Positions 2,605 to 10,042 of a stretch of DNA of 64,000 bases are shown piece by piece. The notes below the pieces were generated by a model. The model saw only the letters and a list, made by a program, of their open reading frames with translations. It did no database searches and was not told the DNA's origin. Position numbers and translations under genes: made by a program. The stretch is from Candidatus Sulfotelmatobacter sp. (GTDB lineage Bacteria; Acidobacteriota; Terriglobia; Terriglobales; Acidobacteriaceae): assembly GCA_036500765.1 (NCBI GenBank), contig DASYBM010000004.1:930001-994000 (forward strand). Reading direction: 5' to 3'. The first letter of the stretch is position 1. Each line of letters begins with the position of its first letter.

Positions 2605-3315
2605 ATGAATCGCGAATTTCACAAGGCATATAGCCAGGAACTGCATAGGGACATGGAGGCGCTGGTCTTCGGCCACGCCGGGATGCCGCTCGTCGTCTTC
2701 CCTACCTCGATGGGCAAGTTCTTCGAGTATGAAGATCGCGGAATGATCGGAACGCTGGCGCCGAAGATCGACCGCGGCGAACTCCAGGTGTTTTGCCCGG
2801 ACGCCGTCGATACCGAGAGTTGGTACAACAAGGGCGTGCATCCGCGGGTGCGGGTGATGCGCCATCTACAATACGAACGCTACATCCTGCATGAGTTCTT
2901 GCCCTTCATCCGGTGGAAGAACCAGGCATGGCAACTGGCTCTAACCGGTTGCAGCTTCGGCGGGTATCACGCGGTCAATTTTGCCTTGAAGCATCCCGAC
3001 GTGGTAACGCATTGCGTGAGCATGAGCGGATCGTTCGACATCCACCAGTTTCTTGATGGCTATTACGACGACGACTGCTACTTCAACAATCCTGCCGATT
3101 TCATTCCAAACATGTCGGATGACTGGTTCTTGAGCCGCTATCGGCAAATGAAGATCGTGCTGGGCTCGGCGGACTGGGATATCTGTCTGGATCAAAATGT
3201 AAAGTTTTCGGCAATGTTGAATAACAAGGCAATTCCTCACTGGCTGGACGTTTGGAACGACAATTCAAAGCACGACTGGCCGCTGTGGCAGAGGATGGCC
3301 GAAAAATACTTTTGA
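2605..3315 (+). CDS. Esterase-D-like alpha/beta hydrolase
   Basis: A 236-residue cytoplasmic protein of the esterase/feruloyl-esterase D family (PF00756 type). The nucleophile elbow GCSFGGYHA puts the catalytic Ser at about residue 117. A His in KHDWPLWQ near the C terminus and an Asp in LGSADWDICLD are the likely other triad members. FALKHPDVVTHCVSMSGSFD after the elbow is typical of the family. The ATG at 2605 (MNREFHKAYS) is preferred, because residues read upstream of it to 2518 do not resemble the family. There is no signal peptide. The substrate cannot be deduced; related proteins hydrolyse short acyl or thioester substrates. It stands alone between dispersed repeats and an exported protein. 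Confidence 0.82.
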   Translation: MNREFHKAYSQELHRDMEALVFGHAGMPLVVFPTSMGKFFEYEDRGMIGTLAPKIDRGELQVFCPDAVDTESWYNKGVHPRVRVMRHLQYERYILHEFLPFIRWKNQAWQLALTGCSFGGYHAVNFALKHPDVVTHCVSMSGSFDIHQFLDGYYDDDCYFNNPADFIPNMSDDWFLSRYRQMKIVLGSADWDICLDQNVKFSAMLNNKAIPHWLDVWNDNSKHDWPLWQRMAEKYF

Positions 3316-3469: not shown

Positions 3470-4147
3470 ATGTCGAAGCTGAAGCGCGTGGGGCTTGTTG
3501 TTTTGTCAGTCTGCCTGGCTGGGCTGTCCACGGCCGTCGGACAGTCTACTTTGCACATTGGCCCGGGAGCTGGCACCAGCTGTGCGACTGGCTGCGGTGG
3601 CGATCCCAACCTTTTATCCGGGGCCTGGAATGTGGATATCTATCAGAATAGCGGGGGCGCTCCCACCGCCGGAGAACCCGTCCTCATCATTCTGGGCGTG
3701 CCCAGCCAATATGATCGTCGCATGCCCGCGATGCCCATTACCGGAGTCACGTCTTATAACCCCTATCCCAACGGCACCGGAGTCGCCGGCACGGCTACAT
3801 TTGCAACCGGCGGAACTTACGGATTGATCAATCCTGTTTCCAACGGCTATTTCGGCATCATGCAGCCTGGGCAGGAAGTTTACTCATTCCTCGGGCTCGC
3901 GGGCGCCAACAAGTCGAATAGCTTCACCAACTGGGCAGGCGAAGACGACGAATACGTGGATTTGACCGTAACCGGATTTGCCATCCACGTGTATGCCGTT
4001 ACCGCCGAACTCGGGCCGAACGGGTTGATCAACTTGTCTCTCGTACAGAAAGTGCCGAAGGGAACCTACATCGTTGCTTACTCCGTGGCCAATGGAAAAA
4101 GCTACGCGGTACCATTCACCGAGTCTGGGCTGAAGGTTAGCTACTAA
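3470..4147 (+). CDS. Exported hypothetical protein
   Basis: A 225-residue protein with a clear signal peptide (MSKLKRVGLVVLSVCLAGLSTAVGQ, predicted cleavage near residue 25). The mature part is rich in Gly, Thr, Asn and Pro and contains a CATGC cysteine pair just after the signal. An AAGGAG ribosome site lies 9-10 bases before the ATG. It is monocistronic, with its own terminator at 4196. No recognised domain. A small beta-sandwich or surface protein is a guess from composition. Confidence 0.8.
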   Translation: MSKLKRVGLVVLSVCLAGLSTAVGQSTLHIGPGAGTSCATGCGGDPNLLSGAWNVDIYQNSGGAPTAGEPVLIILGVPSQYDRRMPAMPITGVTSYNPYPNGTGVAGTATFATGGTYGLINPVSNGYFGIMQPGQEVYSFLGLAGANKSNSFTNWAGEDDEYVDLTVTGFAIHVYAVTAELGPNGLINLSLVQKVPKGTYIVAYSVANGKSYAVPFTESGLKVSY

Positions 4148-4195: not shown

Positions 4196-4226
4196 GGCCG
4201 GAGCTTTCACAGCTCCGGCCTTTTCT
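4196..4226 (+). terminator. Rho-independent terminator
   Basis: A perfect 10-bp stem, GGCCGGAGCT with AGCTCCGGCC, has a TTCAC loop and is followed by TTTTCTT. It ends the exported-protein gene. Confidence 0.93.
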
Positions 4227-4298: not shown

Positions 4299-5315
4299 GT
4301 GAGCGTTAAGAAGGTTGGCATTCTTTTTGGGATGGAGAATACATTTCCTCCGGCGTTGGTCGAGAAGATCAACTCGATGAATGTTGATGGCGTCGAGGCA
4401 GAGTTCCTGAAGATCGGCGGCATCCGCATGGATGAGCCGAAGAAGTACGCGGTAATCATCGACCGGATTTCGCAGGATATCCAGTTTTATCGCGCGTATC
4501 TGAAGAACGCCGCGCTGCACGGAACGATCGTCGTCAACAATCCGTTCTGGTGGACGGCCGACGACAAGTTCTTCAACTACGCTCTCGCTCACAAGATGGG
4601 CGTGGCGATTCCGCCGACGGTGATTCTGCCCCACAATAAGCATCCCGAAGGAACGACCGACATGTCGATGCGGAATTTAATGTTTCCGCTGAACTGGCAG
4701 GAGTTGTTCGACTACGTCGGCTTCCCGGCGTTTTTGAAGCCTTATTCCGGAGGCGGATGGAAGCATGTCTATCATGTGCACTCGCCGGAAGAATTTTTTC
4801 ATTACTACAACCAGACCGGCGACTTGTGCATGACCCTGCAGCACGGCGTGGTGTTCGAAGAATATTACCGCTGCTACGTGGTGGGGCAAGAGAAAGTGCA
4901 CATCATGAAATACGATCCGCGGGCGCCGTTTCATGAGCGCTACGTGAAGGGGAATCCGCCGCCGTCCTCGCCGGCACTGCATCAGCGCATGGTGAAGGAT
5001 GCGTTGTCGCTCTGCCGGGCTTTGGGATACGACTTGAATACCGTCGAGTTTGCAGTTGAGGGCGGAGTGCCCTATGCAATCGACTTTCTGAATCCAGCGC
5101 CGGACGCTGAGGTCACATCGGTAGGTCAGGAAAATTTCGAATGGATATTGAACGCCGTCGCAGAGATGGCGGTGAAGATGGCGCTAAGCGGCGAGAGTCC
5201 GGTGAAGGAGTTGCGCTGGGCAGAGTTCCTGGCGGGATCGCCGGCGGAGAAACCGCAACGCAAGGCCGAACCGGAGTGGGTCGCGGCACGAAAGAAAGGA
5301 AAAGTGACGAAGTAG
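4299..5315 (+). CDS. ATP-grasp ligase-like protein
   Basis: A 338-residue cytoplasmic protein with an ATP-grasp layout. GFPAFLKPYSGGGWKHV (about residues 141-157) gives the ATP-binding Lys and glycine-rich loop. VVFEEYYRCYVVG supplies the acidic hinge and basic residue, and VEFAVEGGVPYAIDFLNPAPD supplies the Mg2+-binding Glu/Asn pair. The family couples ATP hydrolysis to joining a carboxylate to an amine or thiol. Substrates are unknown. The GTG at 4299 follows an AGGAG site. It precedes a YbdK-like ligase, an M29 peptidase and a second ATP-grasp-like gene, which suggests a shared peptide-like product. A 670-bp gap with a repeat and a broken gene separates it from those partners. Confidence 0.78.
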   Translation: MSVKKVGILFGMENTFPPALVEKINSMNVDGVEAEFLKIGGIRMDEPKKYAVIIDRISQDIQFYRAYLKNAALHGTIVVNNPFWWTADDKFFNYALAHKMGVAIPPTVILPHNKHPEGTTDMSMRNLMFPLNWQELFDYVGFPAFLKPYSGGGWKHVYHVHSPEEFFHYYNQTGDLCMTLQHGVVFEEYYRCYVVGQEKVHIMKYDPRAPFHERYVKGNPPPSSPALHQRMVKDALSLCRALGYDLNTVEFAVEGGVPYAIDFLNPAPDAEVTSVGQENFEWILNAVAEMAVKMALSGESPVKELRWAEFLAGSPAEKPQRKAEPEWVAARKKGKVTK

Positions 5316-5365
5316 TCGCCGCGCTAGGTCAATAAGCCCAATTTCTCCTGTACCTAAATGGCTTG

Positions 5366-5476
5366 TCATCCTGAGGACCGCGTTCTTTGCGGGCCGAAGG
5401 ATCTATGCAGCTTGGCAGCACTCTCGAAGTTGCAGGCAACTGCATGGGTTCCTTTGCTTCGCTGAGGATGACGGAC
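5366..5476. repeat. Dispersed palindromic repeat (GTCATCC / GGATGAC)
   Basis: The element begins GTCATCCTGAGGACCG and ends CGCTGAGGATGACGG, so the outer 8 bases (GTCATCCT/AGGATGAC) are inverted. Inside is CGAAGGATCTATGCAG. Its minus-strand translation gives the peptide VILSEAKEP, a familiar spurious product of interspersed repeats in acidobacterial genomes. It separates the first ATP-grasp gene from the rest of the cluster. Confidence 0.75.
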
Positions 5477-5487
5477 CGTTTTAGATT

Positions 5488-5954
5488 ATGAAAGGCAAAG
5501 CTGCCGCTAAAACCGTAGACGAATATCTGGCTCAACTTCCCGAACCGCCGCGCAGCACGCTGAAACATGTTCGTGCCGTGATTCAGTCGGTGGTGCCGAA
5601 GGAAACGACCGAAGTAATCAGCTACGGGATTCCAATGTTCAAGAACAACGGAATGCTCGTTGGCTACGCGGCATTTAAAAATCATTGCGGCTTATTTCCG
5701 ACCGGTCGGGCGTCATGAACACCTTTGCAAAGGAGTTGAAGGGCTATCGCACTTCGAAGGGGACCATCCGATTCCCATCCGACAAGCCTTTGCCCGACGC
5801 CCTGATTAAGAAGATCGTGAAAGAACGGGTTAAGGAAAACGCGGAGTGGGATTGGGTTTGCCGTGGTTTTTCCGCCCGTTGGTATACTGGAAGAGTTCGC
5901 CGTGAGCCATGGTATTGGCGGCGAACAGCAGTTTCCTCGCTTCGCGAGGAATGA
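5488..5954 (+). pseudogene. Frameshifted DUF1801 (YdhG-like) gene
   Basis: The first frame (from ATG 5488) encodes the N-terminal two thirds of a DUF1801 protein: TVDEYLAQLPEPPRSTLKHVR, then EVISYGIPMFKNNGMLVGYAAFKNHCGLFPTG. It stops at 5718. The remainder continues in the next frame: VMNTFAKELKGYRTSKGTIRF, then PSDKPLPDALIKKIVKERVKEN. The change of frame near 5705-5715 is explained by loss of one base. Family homology ends near 5850, and the frame then runs on to 5954 with unrelated residues. DUF1801 proteins are small cytosolic proteins sometimes called iron chaperones. No slippery heptamer is present, so programmed frameshifting is unlikely. A base-calling error remains possible. Confidence 0.8.
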
Positions 5955-5989
5955 GAATGAGTGGAGAAGAGTGACGGCAAAACAAGCGA

Positions 5990-7126
5990 ATGACCCCGAC
6001 TTTCACCATCGGAATTGAAGAGGAATATCAGACCGTCGACCCGGCGACGGGAGAGCTGCGGTCGCATATTCATGCCGAGCTTTTGCAGAAGGGCAAAATG
6101 CTTCTGCAGGAGCGGGTCAAGGCGGAGATGCACCAATCCGTCATTGAAGTAGGCACGGGGATTTGCCAGAACATCAAAGAGGCCAAGGCGGAAGTAAAGA
6201 TGCTCCGGCGCGACATTGTGCGCCTGGCCAAGGAGAACGGCCTGCGGCTGGCGGCGGTGGCGACGCATCCGTTTTCGGATTGGCGGGTGCAGGAAATTTA
6301 TCCAGACGACCGTTACAAGGGAATTGTCGAAGACTTGCAACTGGTGGCGCGGGCCAATCTGATTTTCGGCCTGCACGTGCATATCGGCATCGATGATCGT
6401 GAGACCGCGATTCACATGATGAATCACGCGCGCTATTTTCTGCCGCACATTCTGGCGCTATCGACTAATTCGCCCTTCTGGCTGGGAATGAACACCGGAC
6501 TGAAATCATATCGGTGCAAAGTATTTGACAAGTTTCCGCGCACTAATATTCCGGATTATTTCCCGAGTTGGGGCGAATACGAGAATTTCATCAAACTCCT
6601 CATTAAGACCAACTGCATCGACAACGCCAAGAAAATCTGGTGGGACCTTCGGCCGCATCCTTTTTTCAATACGCTCGAATTTCGCGTCTGCGACGTACCC
6701 ATGCGGGCGGATGAGACGATCGCACTGGCCGCGCTGATTCAGGCGACTGTAGCGAAACTTCACAAGCTGTTTACAGCGAATCAGGGATTCCGCTTGTACC
6801 GGCGCGCGCTGATCATGGAAAACAAGTGGCGGGCTTCGCGCTATGGCCTCGACGGCAAGATGATCGATTTCGGCAAGCAGATCGAAGTTCCGGCGCGGGA
6901 CTTGATCCACGAGTATCTGCATTTCGTAGACGACGTTGTGGACGAACTGGGCTCGCGCGAAGAATTGAATTACATCCACAAGATTCTGGAGCACGGCAGC
7001 GGGGCCGACCGCCAGTTGCGCGTGTTCGAGCAAACCGGGGATTTGAAGAAAGTTGTCGATTACATCATTGAAGAAACGGAAGCGGGTTTGGAAGACGATC
7101 CGGTTGCCGTTCGAAAAGTAGGTTAA
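5990..7126 (+). CDS. Carboxylate-amine ligase, YbdK/GCS2 family
   Basis: A 378-residue cytosolic enzyme of the glutamate-cysteine ligase 2 (COG2170) family. GIEEEYQTVD at residues 8-17 is the family's N-terminal nucleotide/metal motif. LHVHIGIDD (about 128-136), HALALSTNSPFWLG-like sequence, and EFRVCDVPMRADE follow in the usual order, and length matches the family. These enzymes form an amide between a carboxylate (often glutamate) and an amine at the expense of ATP. YbdK has only weak glutamate-cysteine ligase activity, so the true substrates here are open. The stop codon overlaps the next start (TAATG at 7124-7128), implying translational coupling with the M29 peptidase. Confidence 0.9.
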   Translation: MTPTFTIGIEEEYQTVDPATGELRSHIHAELLQKGKMLLQERVKAEMHQSVIEVGTGICQNIKEAKAEVKMLRRDIVRLAKENGLRLAAVATHPFSDWRVQEIYPDDRYKGIVEDLQLVARANLIFGLHVHIGIDDRETAIHMMNHARYFLPHILALSTNSPFWLGMNTGLKSYRCKVFDKFPRTNIPDYFPSWGEYENFIKLLIKTNCIDNAKKIWWDLRPHPFFNTLEFRVCDVPMRADETIALAALIQATVAKLHKLFTANQGFRLYRRALIMENKWRASRYGLDGKMIDFGKQIEVPARDLIHEYLHFVDDVVDELGSREELNYIHKILEHGSGADRQLRVFEQTGDLKKVVDYIIEETEAGLEDDPVAVRKVG

Positions 7127-8211
7127 TGAGCGCTCACGTGGACCAAGTCAAAACTCCCGCTCCGCCTGTGCAAAATACACAGGCACAACGTCAGGCCAAC
7201 CTTAACATTCCATTCGATCCTGAGTACACGCCGGGGGCTGTCAATGCCGTCAAAGTGTGCTTGCGCGTGCAGCCTGACGAGCAGGTCTGTTTGATCACCG
7301 ACGAGGCGACGATTGAGATCGCAGCCGCCATTGGGCATGAACTGCAAAAACTGGGCGCGCCTTATCACGCCTGGGTGCTGGAAGAGTTGGCGGAGCGTCC
7401 GCTGACTGATTTGCCGCGCGCGATTCTCGATGATCTCGAAACCAGCCAGGTTTCGATTTTTGCGGTGCAGGCACAGACGAACGAGCTGCGGTCACGCATC
7501 CAGATGACCGACGTGGTCAACCGGCGCAAGATTCGCCACGCGCACATGGTAAACATCAATCGCCAAATCATGCTGGAAGGCATGCGCGCGGATTTTCAGA
7601 AAGTCGACCGCTTGAGCGCCAAGGTAGTTGCCATGGTGCGGAAGGCGCGGCAGGTGCGGGCCACGACCGCAGCCGGCACGGATCTGACTGCCGATTTGAA
7701 TCCCAATTACAAGTGGCTGAAGACCAGCGGAATTATCTCGCCGGAAAAGTGGGGCAACTTGCCGGGCGGGGAAATTTTCACGACCCCGGGCGAGGTCAAC
7801 GGAACGTTTGTGATTGATGGCGTAGTGGGCGATTATCTGTGCGCGAAGTTTGGCAATTTGCAGGACAATCCGCTAACCATACGCATGAAGGGTAACCGGC
7901 TCACCGAAGCGCACTCGCAGAATCGCGAACTGGAAAACGACTTCTGGAAATATACTCACACCGACGAGAACAGCGACCGCGTTGGCGAGTTTGCTATCGG
8001 CACGAATATCGACTTAAAAGAAGTGATCGGGCAGATTCTCCAGGACGAGAAGTATCCCGGCGTGCATATTGCGTTTGGCAATCCCTACGGCGCCCACACC
8101 GGTGCGGAGTGGGATTCGACCACGCACATTGATGTTGTCGGGCGGAAATTTAATATCTGGGTTGACGACGAGCAGATTATGCGCGAGGGGAAGTTTCTGG
8201 TGGAAGCGTAG
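7126..8211 (+). CDS. M29-family aminopeptidase
   Basis: A 361-residue thermophilic-aminopeptidase (M29) family enzyme. The C-terminal part has the family's metal ligands: GEFAIGTN (Glu), GVHIAFGNPYGAHTG (His) and THIDVV (His and Asp). The N-terminal half has the usual substrate-binding sequence MVNINRQIMLEGM. M29 enzymes are cytosolic metallopeptidases that release N-terminal residues. It begins on the last base of the ligase stop codon, so the two are co-translated. In this setting it could trim, recycle or give immunity to a ligase-made peptide, which is inference. At 361 residues it is slightly shorter than classic AmpS/PepS (about 410). Confidence 0.87.
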   Translation: MSAHVDQVKTPAPPVQNTQAQRQANLNIPFDPEYTPGAVNAVKVCLRVQPDEQVCLITDEATIEIAAAIGHELQKLGAPYHAWVLEELAERPLTDLPRAILDDLETSQVSIFAVQAQTNELRSRIQMTDVVNRRKIRHAHMVNINRQIMLEGMRADFQKVDRLSAKVVAMVRKARQVRATTAAGTDLTADLNPNYKWLKTSGIISPEKWGNLPGGEIFTTPGEVNGTFVIDGVVGDYLCAKFGNLQDNPLTIRMKGNRLTEAHSQNRELENDFWKYTHTDENSDRVGEFAIGTNIDLKEVIGQILQDEKYPGVHIAFGNPYGAHTGAEWDSTTHIDVVGRKFNIWVDDEQIMREGKFLVEA

Positions 8212-8217
8212 GAAACT

Positions 8218-8787
8218 ATGGTCGTGGAGCCTTATAAGTTCGGCCATCTGAACGCATCGGGGGTTGAGGCTCCGTTCCAGTACGCGAACTGCTGGGCGGT
8301 GGAGAAGACAAGCGGACCACCCCGGCTGGTCATCGCTCCGGCCGCGGCTCAAATCAGGATAATTAGCAAACTGACTGCCGCGATGGAAAGCCCATTCGGT
8401 CTTCTTTTCGTTTTGCTAGTCCCGCGCGGCGGCGGAGAAGCGGGCCGCTATCAGAGTCCCGAGCCGATCAACTCGCACCAGCTTGAAGAGTTCCTGTGGG
8501 AGTTTCAGGACCTTCTTGAAAAGGACGCTCGCCACCATTTCTGGATCATGTCAATCGACAACTCTTCTCTGCTCGTGTATGACAACCACAACGTCATCTA
8601 TGCGTACGGCCCGCTTGAAGCCTTCGAGAGAATCTTGACTTCCGATGGTTTCGCCAAGTGTGACGATGTGCAATTCCCTGTGCCGCACATGCATCGATAC
8701 AATGCTGAATTCGACGAGCAACAAAGACAGCTATTGAAACATTGGGATTGGATAAAGTTCCCGCTCCAAGATTCGGACGACAGGTAA
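8218..8787 (+). CDS. Hypothetical protein in ligase cluster
   Basis: A 189-residue protein starting six bases after the M29 stop, so almost certainly in the same transcript. The sequence is soluble, acidic and aromatic, with no signal peptide. A hydrophobic strand, MESPFGLLFVLLVPRGGG, is followed by QLEEFLWEFQDLLEKDARHHFWIMS and DNSSLLVYDNHNVIYAYG. This alternation of strands and helices suggests a small alpha/beta fold. I do not recognise the family. Position between peptidase and ATP-grasp genes suggests an accessory or substrate-binding role, but nothing in the sequence proves that. Confidence 0.75.
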   Translation: MVVEPYKFGHLNASGVEAPFQYANCWAVEKTSGPPRLVIAPAAAQIRIISKLTAAMESPFGLLFVLLVPRGGGEAGRYQSPEPINSHQLEEFLWEFQDLLEKDARHHFWIMSIDNSSLLVYDNHNVIYAYGPLEAFERILTSDGFAKCDDVQFPVPHMHRYNAEFDEQQRQLLKHWDWIKFPLQDSDDR

Positions 8788-8821
8788 GCTCTCGTGCCCC
8801 ACCGGCCGACAATCAAACAGT

Positions 8822-10042
8822 ATGATTCCTTCTCTGCGCGAGGCGTTCAACACCGGATTCACTCCTGAAAAATATCAAGATTTTTTACGGCGCGTGGACG
8901 AGACTTGCGGGACGCAGGTGCAGTTTCGGCTGTCCGAGACACCTTGCTTCTTTCCGAAGGAACTCATCGACCGCATCGCCACAGATGGCCAGTCGCTGAT
9001 TCGGCAATTGGTCGACAGTCCGGCCTACCGTGCGAAATCGGATGAGGCGGTTCCAGCCGAATTCAAAGTCCCAAATGAAGCGCCGCATCCCATGTTTGTG
9101 CAAGTGGATTTTGGGCTGGTGCGCAATGAGCTCGGCGAGTTGCAGCCGAAACTCGTCGAGTTGCAAGCTTTTCCTTCCCTGTATGCCTATCAGGGGCCGC
9201 TGGCGGAGACCTATATCAATGTGTATGGGCTACGGGAAATGGCGACGTCGGTCCTCGGCCCTCGGTCGTCGGTCAAGTATTTCCTCAGCCGGCTTGATGG
9301 GGATTCGTATCGCGAGCTGCTGAACCGGGCCATCGTCGGCAATCATGATCCTGAGAATGTGATTTTGATGGAGATCGATCCGCTCCATCAGAAGACCGTT
9401 CCGGATTTTCTGCTGACAGAGAAAATGCTGGGCGTGCGCACCGTCGACATTGTCGACATCAAGAAAGAAAGTTCGCGGCTCTATTACGAGCGCGGCGGGA
9501 AGCGTGTGCCGATCGAGCGCATCTATAACCGCGCCATCGTCGATGAACTGGAGCGCAAGCACATCAAGCTCGCGTTTGACTGGCGCGACGATCTCGACGT
9601 CGAGTGGGCGGGACATCCCAATTGGTATTTCCGCATCAGCAAGTTTTCCATTCCCTACTTGAAGCATGAGTCGGTGCCGAAGACCTGGTTCCTGGATCGC
9701 CTCGATGAAATTCCTGTTGATCTGGAAAACTATGCGCTGAAGCCGCTGTATTCTTTTGCGGGGCTGGGAGTAATTATCGCGCCGAAGAAAGAAGATATCG
9801 CCGCGATTCCGGCGGAGAAGCGTCCCCACTACATTTTGCAGGAGCGCATGCATTTCGAGCCGGTGATTGCAACTCCCTTCGGTCCCACGAAGGCCGAAGT
9901 GCGCGTGATGTATGTATGGCTCGAAAAATTGATGCCCGTGCTGACCATCATTCGCATGGGCCGCGGGCTGATGATGGGCGTGGATCACAACAAGAATATG
10001 GAGTGGGTAGGGGCCTCGGCGGGATTTTATTTGGAAGAGTGA
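8822..10042 (+). CDS. ATP-grasp-like protein (second ligase candidate)
   Basis: A 406-residue cytosolic protein. The C-terminal half has ATP-grasp-like elements in order: YALKPLYSFAGLGVII (about residues 304-319, Lys and glycine loop), HYILQERM (hinge), AEVRVMYVW (Glu-x-Arg) and a terminal acidic/Asn segment, VDHNKNMEW. The N-terminal half has KLVELQAFPSLYAYQGPL, recalling the substrate end of glutathionylspermidine-synthase-type ligases. The exact subfamily is not certain. The gap to the preceding gene is 34 bp. Together with the first ATP-grasp and the YbdK-like enzyme it makes three possible ATP-dependent amide-bond formers within 6 kb. Confidence 0.7.
   Translation: MIPSLREAFNTGFTPEKYQDFLRRVDETCGTQVQFRLSETPCFFPKELIDRIATDGQSLIRQLVDSPAYRAKSDEAVPAEFKVPNEAPHPMFVQVDFGLVRNELGELQPKLVELQAFPSLYAYQGPLAETYINVYGLREMATSVLGPRSSVKYFLSRLDGDSYRELLNRAIVGNHDPENVILMEIDPLHQKTVPDFLLTEKMLGVRTVDIVDIKKESSRLYYERGGKRVPIERIYNRAIVDELERKHIKLAFDWRDDLDVEWAGHPNWYFRISKFSIPYLKHESVPKTWFLDRLDEIPVDLENYALKPLYSFAGLGVIIAPKKEDIAAIPAEKRPHYILQERMHFEPVIATPFGPTKAEVRVMYVWLEKLMPVLTIIRMGRGLMMGVDHNKNMEWVGASAGFYLEE

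Follow-up and report, generated by a model that had tools for sequence, protein, structure and literature searches.

Three ATP-dependent amide-bond ligases kept together with a peptidase and an esterase in Acidobacteriota: a candidate gamma-glutamyl pseudo-peptide pathway

Enzymes of the GCS2 family join an amine to the side-chain carboxylate of glutamate, and RimK-like enzymes extend a carboxyl end with amino acids. The end of gamma-Glu-Cys(-Gly) receives glycine or spermidine from enzymes of the glutathione synthetase and Gss types. Conserved amidoligase-peptidase neighbourhoods are already known as a kind, and Iyer et al. are said to have surveyed them in 2009. Excerpts of PMC2588565 describe another family of GCS2 size beside a peptidase resembling class-I glutamine amidotransferases (GATase) in conserved neighbourhoods. 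The locus analysed here lies in a stretch of 64,000 nucleotides of Candidatus Sulfotelmatobacter sp. (contig DASYBM010000004.1, positions 930,001 to 994,000), hereafter the window. It holds genes for an esterase, a first ATP-grasp ligase (grasp1), a GCS2 ligase, an M29-type aminopeptidase (M29) and a second ATP-grasp ligase of 406 residues (p406). Many soil Acidobacteriota keep this set, and variants of it are found again in a second phylum. The initial annotation knew of no characterised system with such a gene set; a search of the open-licence literature agrees, finding no description of it, which does not prove that none exists elsewhere. The genes of the locus and those lying among them are the following.

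2605..3315, plus strand: esterase (alpha/beta hydrolase, PF00756), 236 residues with the ATG at 2605 as start; the longest open reading frame begins at 2518
3470..4147, plus strand: 225-residue exported-looking protein between the esterase and grasp1, judged to be outside the system
4299..5315, plus strand: grasp1, the first ATP-grasp ligase, RimK/LysX fold, 338 residues
5990..7126, plus strand: YbdK-type GCS2 carboxylate-amine ligase, 378 residues
7126..8211, plus strand: M29-type metallo-aminopeptidase, 361 residues, its start overlapping the GCS2 stop (TAATG)
8218..8787, plus strand: p189, a 189-residue orphan inside the cluster, judged not to be a member
8822..10042, plus strand: p406, the second ATP-grasp ligase, glutathione synthetase / glutathionylspermidine synthetase fold, 406 residues

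All five open reading frames that the initial annotation had seen on one strand, from grasp1 to p406, are found at their places, and the tight spacing of the last four was confirmed, with a one-base overlap between GCS2 and M29 followed by gaps of 6 and 34 bases. The esterase gene had been overlooked. A grasp1 scan of GTDB contigs gave 556 loci, the best-scoring 80 of which were kept, many of them on short contigs. GCS2 is present in 75 of these 80 loci, M29 in 67, the esterase, a regular cluster member, in 64 and p406 in 55. The order esterase-grasp1-GCS2-M29-p406 on one strand is retained in 43 loci; the other 37 mostly lack at least one gene, in some cases at a contig end, and p406 is reversed in one. 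The overlap of GCS2 and M29 recurs in 34 of the 43 full-order loci (start codons chosen by the analyst), and in 14 of them none of the four gaps exceeds 120 bp. The earlier expectation of a conserved order in Acidobacteriota holds for the four enzyme genes, with the esterase added, and fails for p189 (0/80). Named loci from outside this phylum belong to 'Chlorobi' (L143) and 'Ignavibacteria' (L161) assemblies; the second phylum is that of L161, inferred to be Bacteroidota. The reading of three ATP-dependent amide-bond ligases of different fold or type, a peptidase and an esterase as a conserved unit is supported; the earlier interpretation stands in part, in that the ligases and the peptidase belong together, and falls as to p189.

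Co-occurrence was assessed in 247 Acidobacteriota genomes and 247 genomes of the second phylum, taking one best match per genome. Matches were called close at E <= 1e-60 for grasp1, 1e-80 for M29, 1e-20 for p406 and 2.2e-138 for GCS2, cut-offs placed at gaps in the match lists after inspection. Close grasp1 occurs in 66 Acidobacteriota genomes, close p406 in 30 (31 with any match) and both in 28. Eighteen of the 19 genomes with a close M29 carry grasp1 and 17 carry p406. A close grasp1 is present in all 54 close-GCS2 genomes, GCS2 lying within 8 kb downstream of it in 34 and not in 20; at a looser GCS2 cut-off (E <= 1e-60), 55 of 80 Acidobacteriota genomes have a close grasp1. The second phylum has grasp1 in 84 genomes, p406 in 73 and both in 70, linked in 42 and unlinked in 28 (in G317 a p406 fragment on the grasp1 contig was counted as linked, a better p406 piece being on another contig). 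Across the two phyla, grasp1 is carried by between about a quarter and a third of the sampled genomes (66/247, 84/247). Neither grasp1 nor p406 had a tblastn match in 72,556 plasmids, and plasmid-borne spread was rejected on that ground. A role as a defence system was rejected as well, with no PADLOC match for six proteins.

That grasp1, GCS2 and p406 co-occur even when unlinked speaks for a common pathway over mere neighbourhood. The alternative of unrelated housekeeping genes placed side by side by chance has in its favour the 28 of 70 second-phylum genomes and the several Acidobacteriota in which p406 is not beside grasp1. However, the order is conserved in Acidobacteriota and, with variants, in the second phylum, and the genes co-occur even when unlinked; conserved order and co-occurrence together exclude a chance neighbourhood, to which we attach practically no probability.

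Two family calls of the initial annotation, GCS2 and M29, lie above curated cut-offs. GCS2 matches PF04107 with 213 bits (cut-off 21) and NCBIfam NF010039 with 553 bits (cut-off 371), and aligns with E. coli YbdK (1r8g) over residues 3-347 (E 3.6e-50). Residues 8-12 of the translation read G-I-E-E-E, satisfying GhExE, which excerpts of PMC2588565 give as the metal/ATP signature of the family. Assignment of this gene to the YbdK-type members of the GCS2 family is secure, and gamma-glutamyl ligase activity is predicted for its product. The M29 gene matches PF02073 with 55.6 bits (cut-off 27), the match being limited to the C-terminal half (profile positions 193-378 of 406). Its profile finds AmpS (1zjc) at E 4.2e-6 and the dioxygenase NicX at 0.001. 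E216, E288, H314, H334 and D336 are invariant in 10 sequences; E216 and E288 align with Glu of AmpS and H314 with the His of CHLAIG, and the H-x-D pair (H334, D336) falls outside that alignment. We take the metal ligands of AmpS, in position and role, to be E, E, H and H-x-D. A NicX-type dioxygenase was considered and rejected, as NicX has no Glu at the two places where it is invariant in the M29 relatives. Since the Glu, His and H-x-D residues are invariant and the two Glu are absent from NicX, the sequence favours a metallopeptidase, with a site that looks peptidase-like. The esterase matches PF00756 with 37.5 bits (cut-off 22), and its presumed catalytic triad S146, D221 and H252 (numbering from 2518) is invariant in 21 sequences, several of which begin at residue 30 in the same numbering. 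The ATG at 2605 was preferred over 2518 as its start.

No Pfam or NCBIfam family matches grasp1, p406 or p189 above cut-off, and for this reason annotation overlooks grasp1 and p406. The structural comparison gives grasp1 a RimK/ATP-grasp fold, closest to RimK itself, with PsnB and MdnC among its fold neighbours; its sequence match to the RimK family is sub-threshold only (rimK_fam, 24.1 bits vs a cut-off of 143.4). The overall fold of p406 is that of glutathionylspermidine synthetase and eukaryotic-type glutathione synthetase, which bears out its earlier designation as an ATP-grasp enzyme. By sequence, p406 had no real match in the PDB, either singly or as a profile, and the window protein had none to PF03738 (GSP_synth), one relative reaching E 0.034, under the cut-off. 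D96 and E113 of p406 are invariant, as is Gln115 in place of Asn (E-x-Q). The R-x-D...E-x-N acyl-phosphate motif, reported in the excerpted PMC12568646 for Cp1B, a fold relative of p406, is present in YgiC, YjfC and Gss, the first two being peptide-spermidine ligases by RefSeq naming.

The fold of grasp1 bears on two other explanations. In the first, the locus would modify proteins: the RimK-like ligase would append residues to the C-terminus of a protein, a tag that the other enzymes would lengthen or take off again. RimK glutamylates ribosomal protein S6 according to excerpts of PMC8939145, and GCS2 is likely ancestral to the Pup ligase in the excerpted PMC2588565. On the other hand, a small tag gene is not conserved in the cluster, the fold relatives of p406 act on small peptides, and the score of grasp1 falls far under the RimK family cut-off, so that we regard protein modification as quite unlikely. 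The second would have the ATP-grasp enzymes cross-link a short ribosomal precursor peptide, as in graspetides, which are ribosomally synthesised and post-translationally modified peptides (RiPPs); sets of an ATP-grasp and a peptidase are typical of RiPP clusters, and PsnB and MdnC are near grasp1 in fold. Against this, small open reading frames (18-90 residues, in the gaps or up to 900 bases off the cluster) show no conservation beyond 8 of the 43 full-order loci, and 14 of these loci leave scant room within the cluster. The largest conserved group comprises 8 loci of close relatives; precursors vary widely and divergent ones would escape such a comparison, so the search is not final. We know of no graspetide cluster with M29 or GCS2 partners, and a graspetide-like product appears very improbable.

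We propose a small non-ribosomal assembly line, glutathione-like in its logic, as the function of the locus, and consider this proposal evenly poised between right and wrong. Residues expected in active sites are largely conserved. GCS2 would link glutamate through its side chain to an amino acid or amine, giving a gamma-amide; grasp1, the RimK-like ligase, would add a further amino acid; and p406 would use glycine, another small amino acid or a polyamine to cap the C-terminal carboxylate. M29, or the GATase-like protein in other genomes, might open or trim the product; in E. coli Gss, likewise, the amidase half reverses what the synthetase half has made. The esterase might free a precursor or adduct of an ester or thioester group. 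The outcome would be a small gamma-glutamyl pseudo-peptide built in two or three steps and reopened by a hydrolase. The genome of the window contains BshA of the bacillithiol route (560 bits), has a single GCS2 at E <= 0.001 and gave no match to gshB (TIGR01380) at E <= 0.001; for these three reasons the cluster does not represent the usual glutathione route.

The hydrolase slot of the proposed assembly line is variable. In some genomes a class-I GATase-like gene takes the place of M29 between GCS2 (or grasp1) and p406. Three tested proteins of this kind match PF00117 with 34 to 41 bits; a fourth (L055) had no Pfam match and was grouped by BLAST clustering only. GATase and M29 are never found together in the 130 loci scored for order, which make up three partly overlapping sets (at least two genomes recur, L095 being G084 and L165 being G023). 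Amidohydrolase genes (PF07969) immediately precede p406 genes that stand away from the rest of the cluster in L211:5392-8020 and L213:5457-8110, the called frames overlapping in both. The p406 slot varies too: a different, circularly permuted ATP-grasp stands beside grasp1 in L221-L223 (Acidobacteriota) and L203 (second phylum), whose genomes lack p406 (PF14403, 32.9 bits in L222 with a cut-off of 32; below it in L203). The recurring functions are three, namely a RimK-like ligase, a GCS2 ligase and a permuted ATP-grasp, joined by an exchangeable hydrolase and an esterase.

In eight loci of relatives (L044, L059, L148, L152, L163, L166, L229 and L230) M29 is followed on its own strand, within 0.9 kb, by an aldo/keto reductase gene, which in some of them lies between M29 and p406. 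Three tested proteins match PF00248 with 255 to 281 bits, and the 12 matches in 196 loci include two of only about 30% identity. The window cluster has no such gene downstream of M29. In L226 (G147), a genome without M29, an aldo/keto reductase gene follows grasp1 instead.

These slots and neighbours bear on the idea that the locus scavenges or detoxifies amines by gamma-glutamylation, as the Puu route does with putrescine. A ligase would tag the amine with glutamate, the GATase-like protein or M29 would later free the glutamate, and the other ligases and the esterase would broaden the range of compounds. The replacement of M29 by a GATase of the class-I superfamily (PF00117) is in keeping with it; the gamma-glutamyl-GABA hydrolase PuuD belongs to the same superfamily. 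The reductase downstream of M29 in eight loci would suit a carbonyl-handling step, and the amidohydrolases upstream of some p406 genes point the same way. Yet the reductase is confined to few loci and is missing from the window cluster, and three ligases exceed what the route needs. The recurring neighbour families were named in part only, and a transporter or oxidase could have escaped notice. We judge amine scavenging unlikely.

Several observations weigh against a single five-gene unit with the proposed glutathione-like assembly. A strong terminator-like hairpin at 4196-4220, after the gene for the 225-residue protein, separates the esterase from grasp1, and because of it the sequence suggests that these two genes are not co-transcribed in the window genome, which makes co-transcription of all five doubtful. 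Comparison of p406 with YgiC, YjfC and Gss by hhalign was weak (9.7% and 20% probability), and p406 lacks the Arg of the acyl-phosphate motif and has Gln for Asn, the motif having been matched by eye. In the second phylum grasp1 is alone in 8 of the 20 loci scored for order (out of 84 grasp1 loci). It has no nearby partner in L218-L220, where a close GCS2 lies elsewhere in the genome, and the esterase is its sole companion in L225-L227; the scoring that included these loci covered 11 in all, L229 and L230 being left out. Genomes with grasp1 and without p406 number 38 of 66 in Acidobacteriota and 14 of 84 in the second phylum. The co-occurrence tests treat related genomes as independent, ignoring shared ancestry. 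Finally, the aldo/keto reductase found beside M29 in one family is unexplained by the scheme.

The 189-residue protein p189, which the initial annotation had counted among the cluster genes, is absent at that place from all 80 grasp1 loci. Apart from its own genome, a single one of the 247 Acidobacteriota genomes (G220) holds a match, 41% identical. That relative is encoded in L206 (G220:C4:1-18000), where over 20 small genes called on the same strand are separated by 23 copies of a 122-base repeat. The repeat has GCCTAAC / GTTAGGC ends and is attC-like, and one cassette encodes the sole relative of p189 that was found; L206 has the look of an integron-like cassette array. A search of viral contigs, suited to close relatives only, gave no match to p189, nor did searches of the PDB, Pfam, NCBIfam, PHROGs and PADLOC. 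Its GC content and third-position GC content (GC3) are similar to those of the neighbouring genes in the window. Its absence from the loci and the placing of its one relative in a cassette array unrelated to the cluster led to the rejection of p189 as a member; it probably arrived recently and has no part in the pathway.

Other features around the cluster can be noted. The 225-residue protein (3470-4147), wedged between the esterase and grasp1, has a signal-peptide-like start and no Pfam match, and tblastn over 196 loci matched the window's own locus only. The gap before GCS2 contains, at 5685-5954, the remnant of a DUF1801 gene (PF08818, 28.0 bits with a cut-off of 27.2, positions 47-85 of 85 only), and DUF1801-like fragments occupy the same position between grasp1 and GCS2 in L093, L094, L102 and L104. 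Two kinds of gene named from L034 (10790-11971), one for a PilZ-domain protein (PF07238) and one for a LuxR-type regulator (PF00196), follow p406 in 10 and 9 loci, respectively; genes resembling this pair by eye lie downstream of grasp1 in L225-L227, which are without p406. In L208:5137-7740 (G376), where p406 is not beside grasp1, a frame of 867 residues joins a sodium:solute symporter (SSF, PF00474) to a p406-type ligase; the fusion, whether natural or an assembly artefact, hints at solute uptake for ligation.

A more specific form of the proposed assembly line is tentative and, on the whole, rather improbable. Its product would be an undescribed low-molecular-weight gamma-glutamyl pseudo-peptide, a counterpart of glutathione or glutathionylspermidine and possibly a polyamine conjugate. 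Soil Acidobacteriota and a large part of Bacteroidota would commonly contain this metabolite in their cells, and p406 would represent a ligase family of its own, with E-x-Q at the metal site. If a glutathione-like compound were indeed made, a common metabolite of abundant soil bacteria would, to our knowledge, never have been sought. The cluster's three stand-alone amide ligases also form a compact set of candidates for biocatalyst tests.

The window GCS2 shares family membership with E. coli YbdK, for which gamma-glutamyl:cysteine ligase activity was reportedly described by Lehmann in 2004; it differs in belonging to the NF010039 equivalog, its score for the YbdK model PRK13516 (250 bits) being under the cut-off of that model. 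Unlike the RimK/LysX/ArgX ligases, grasp1 is below the RimK family cut-off, and no LysW or S6 genes were noticed beside it, no search by name having been made. The E. coli peptide-spermidine ligases YgiC and YjfC and the synthetase half of Gss have a sequence similarity to p406 that is near undetectable; they carry E-x-N and R-x-D, whereas p406 has E-x-Q and no R-x-D, and the hydrolases that accompany p406 (M29, GATase or amidohydrolase) are unlike theirs. Cp1B of E-64 biosynthesis is fungal, and its partner is an amide bond synthetase and not a GCS2 or RimK-like ligase. The amidoligase neighbourhoods in the excerpted PMC2588565 resemble the locus in keeping a GCS2-like ligase together with an unrelated hydrolase, although the GCS2-sized family described there differs from that of the window. 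Like the glutathione pathway, the locus brings together a GCS2-family ligase and a ligase of the glutathione synthetase fold in one cluster; unlike it, its GCS2 is of the YbdK kind, and an extra RimK-fold ligase and an M29 peptidase are present.

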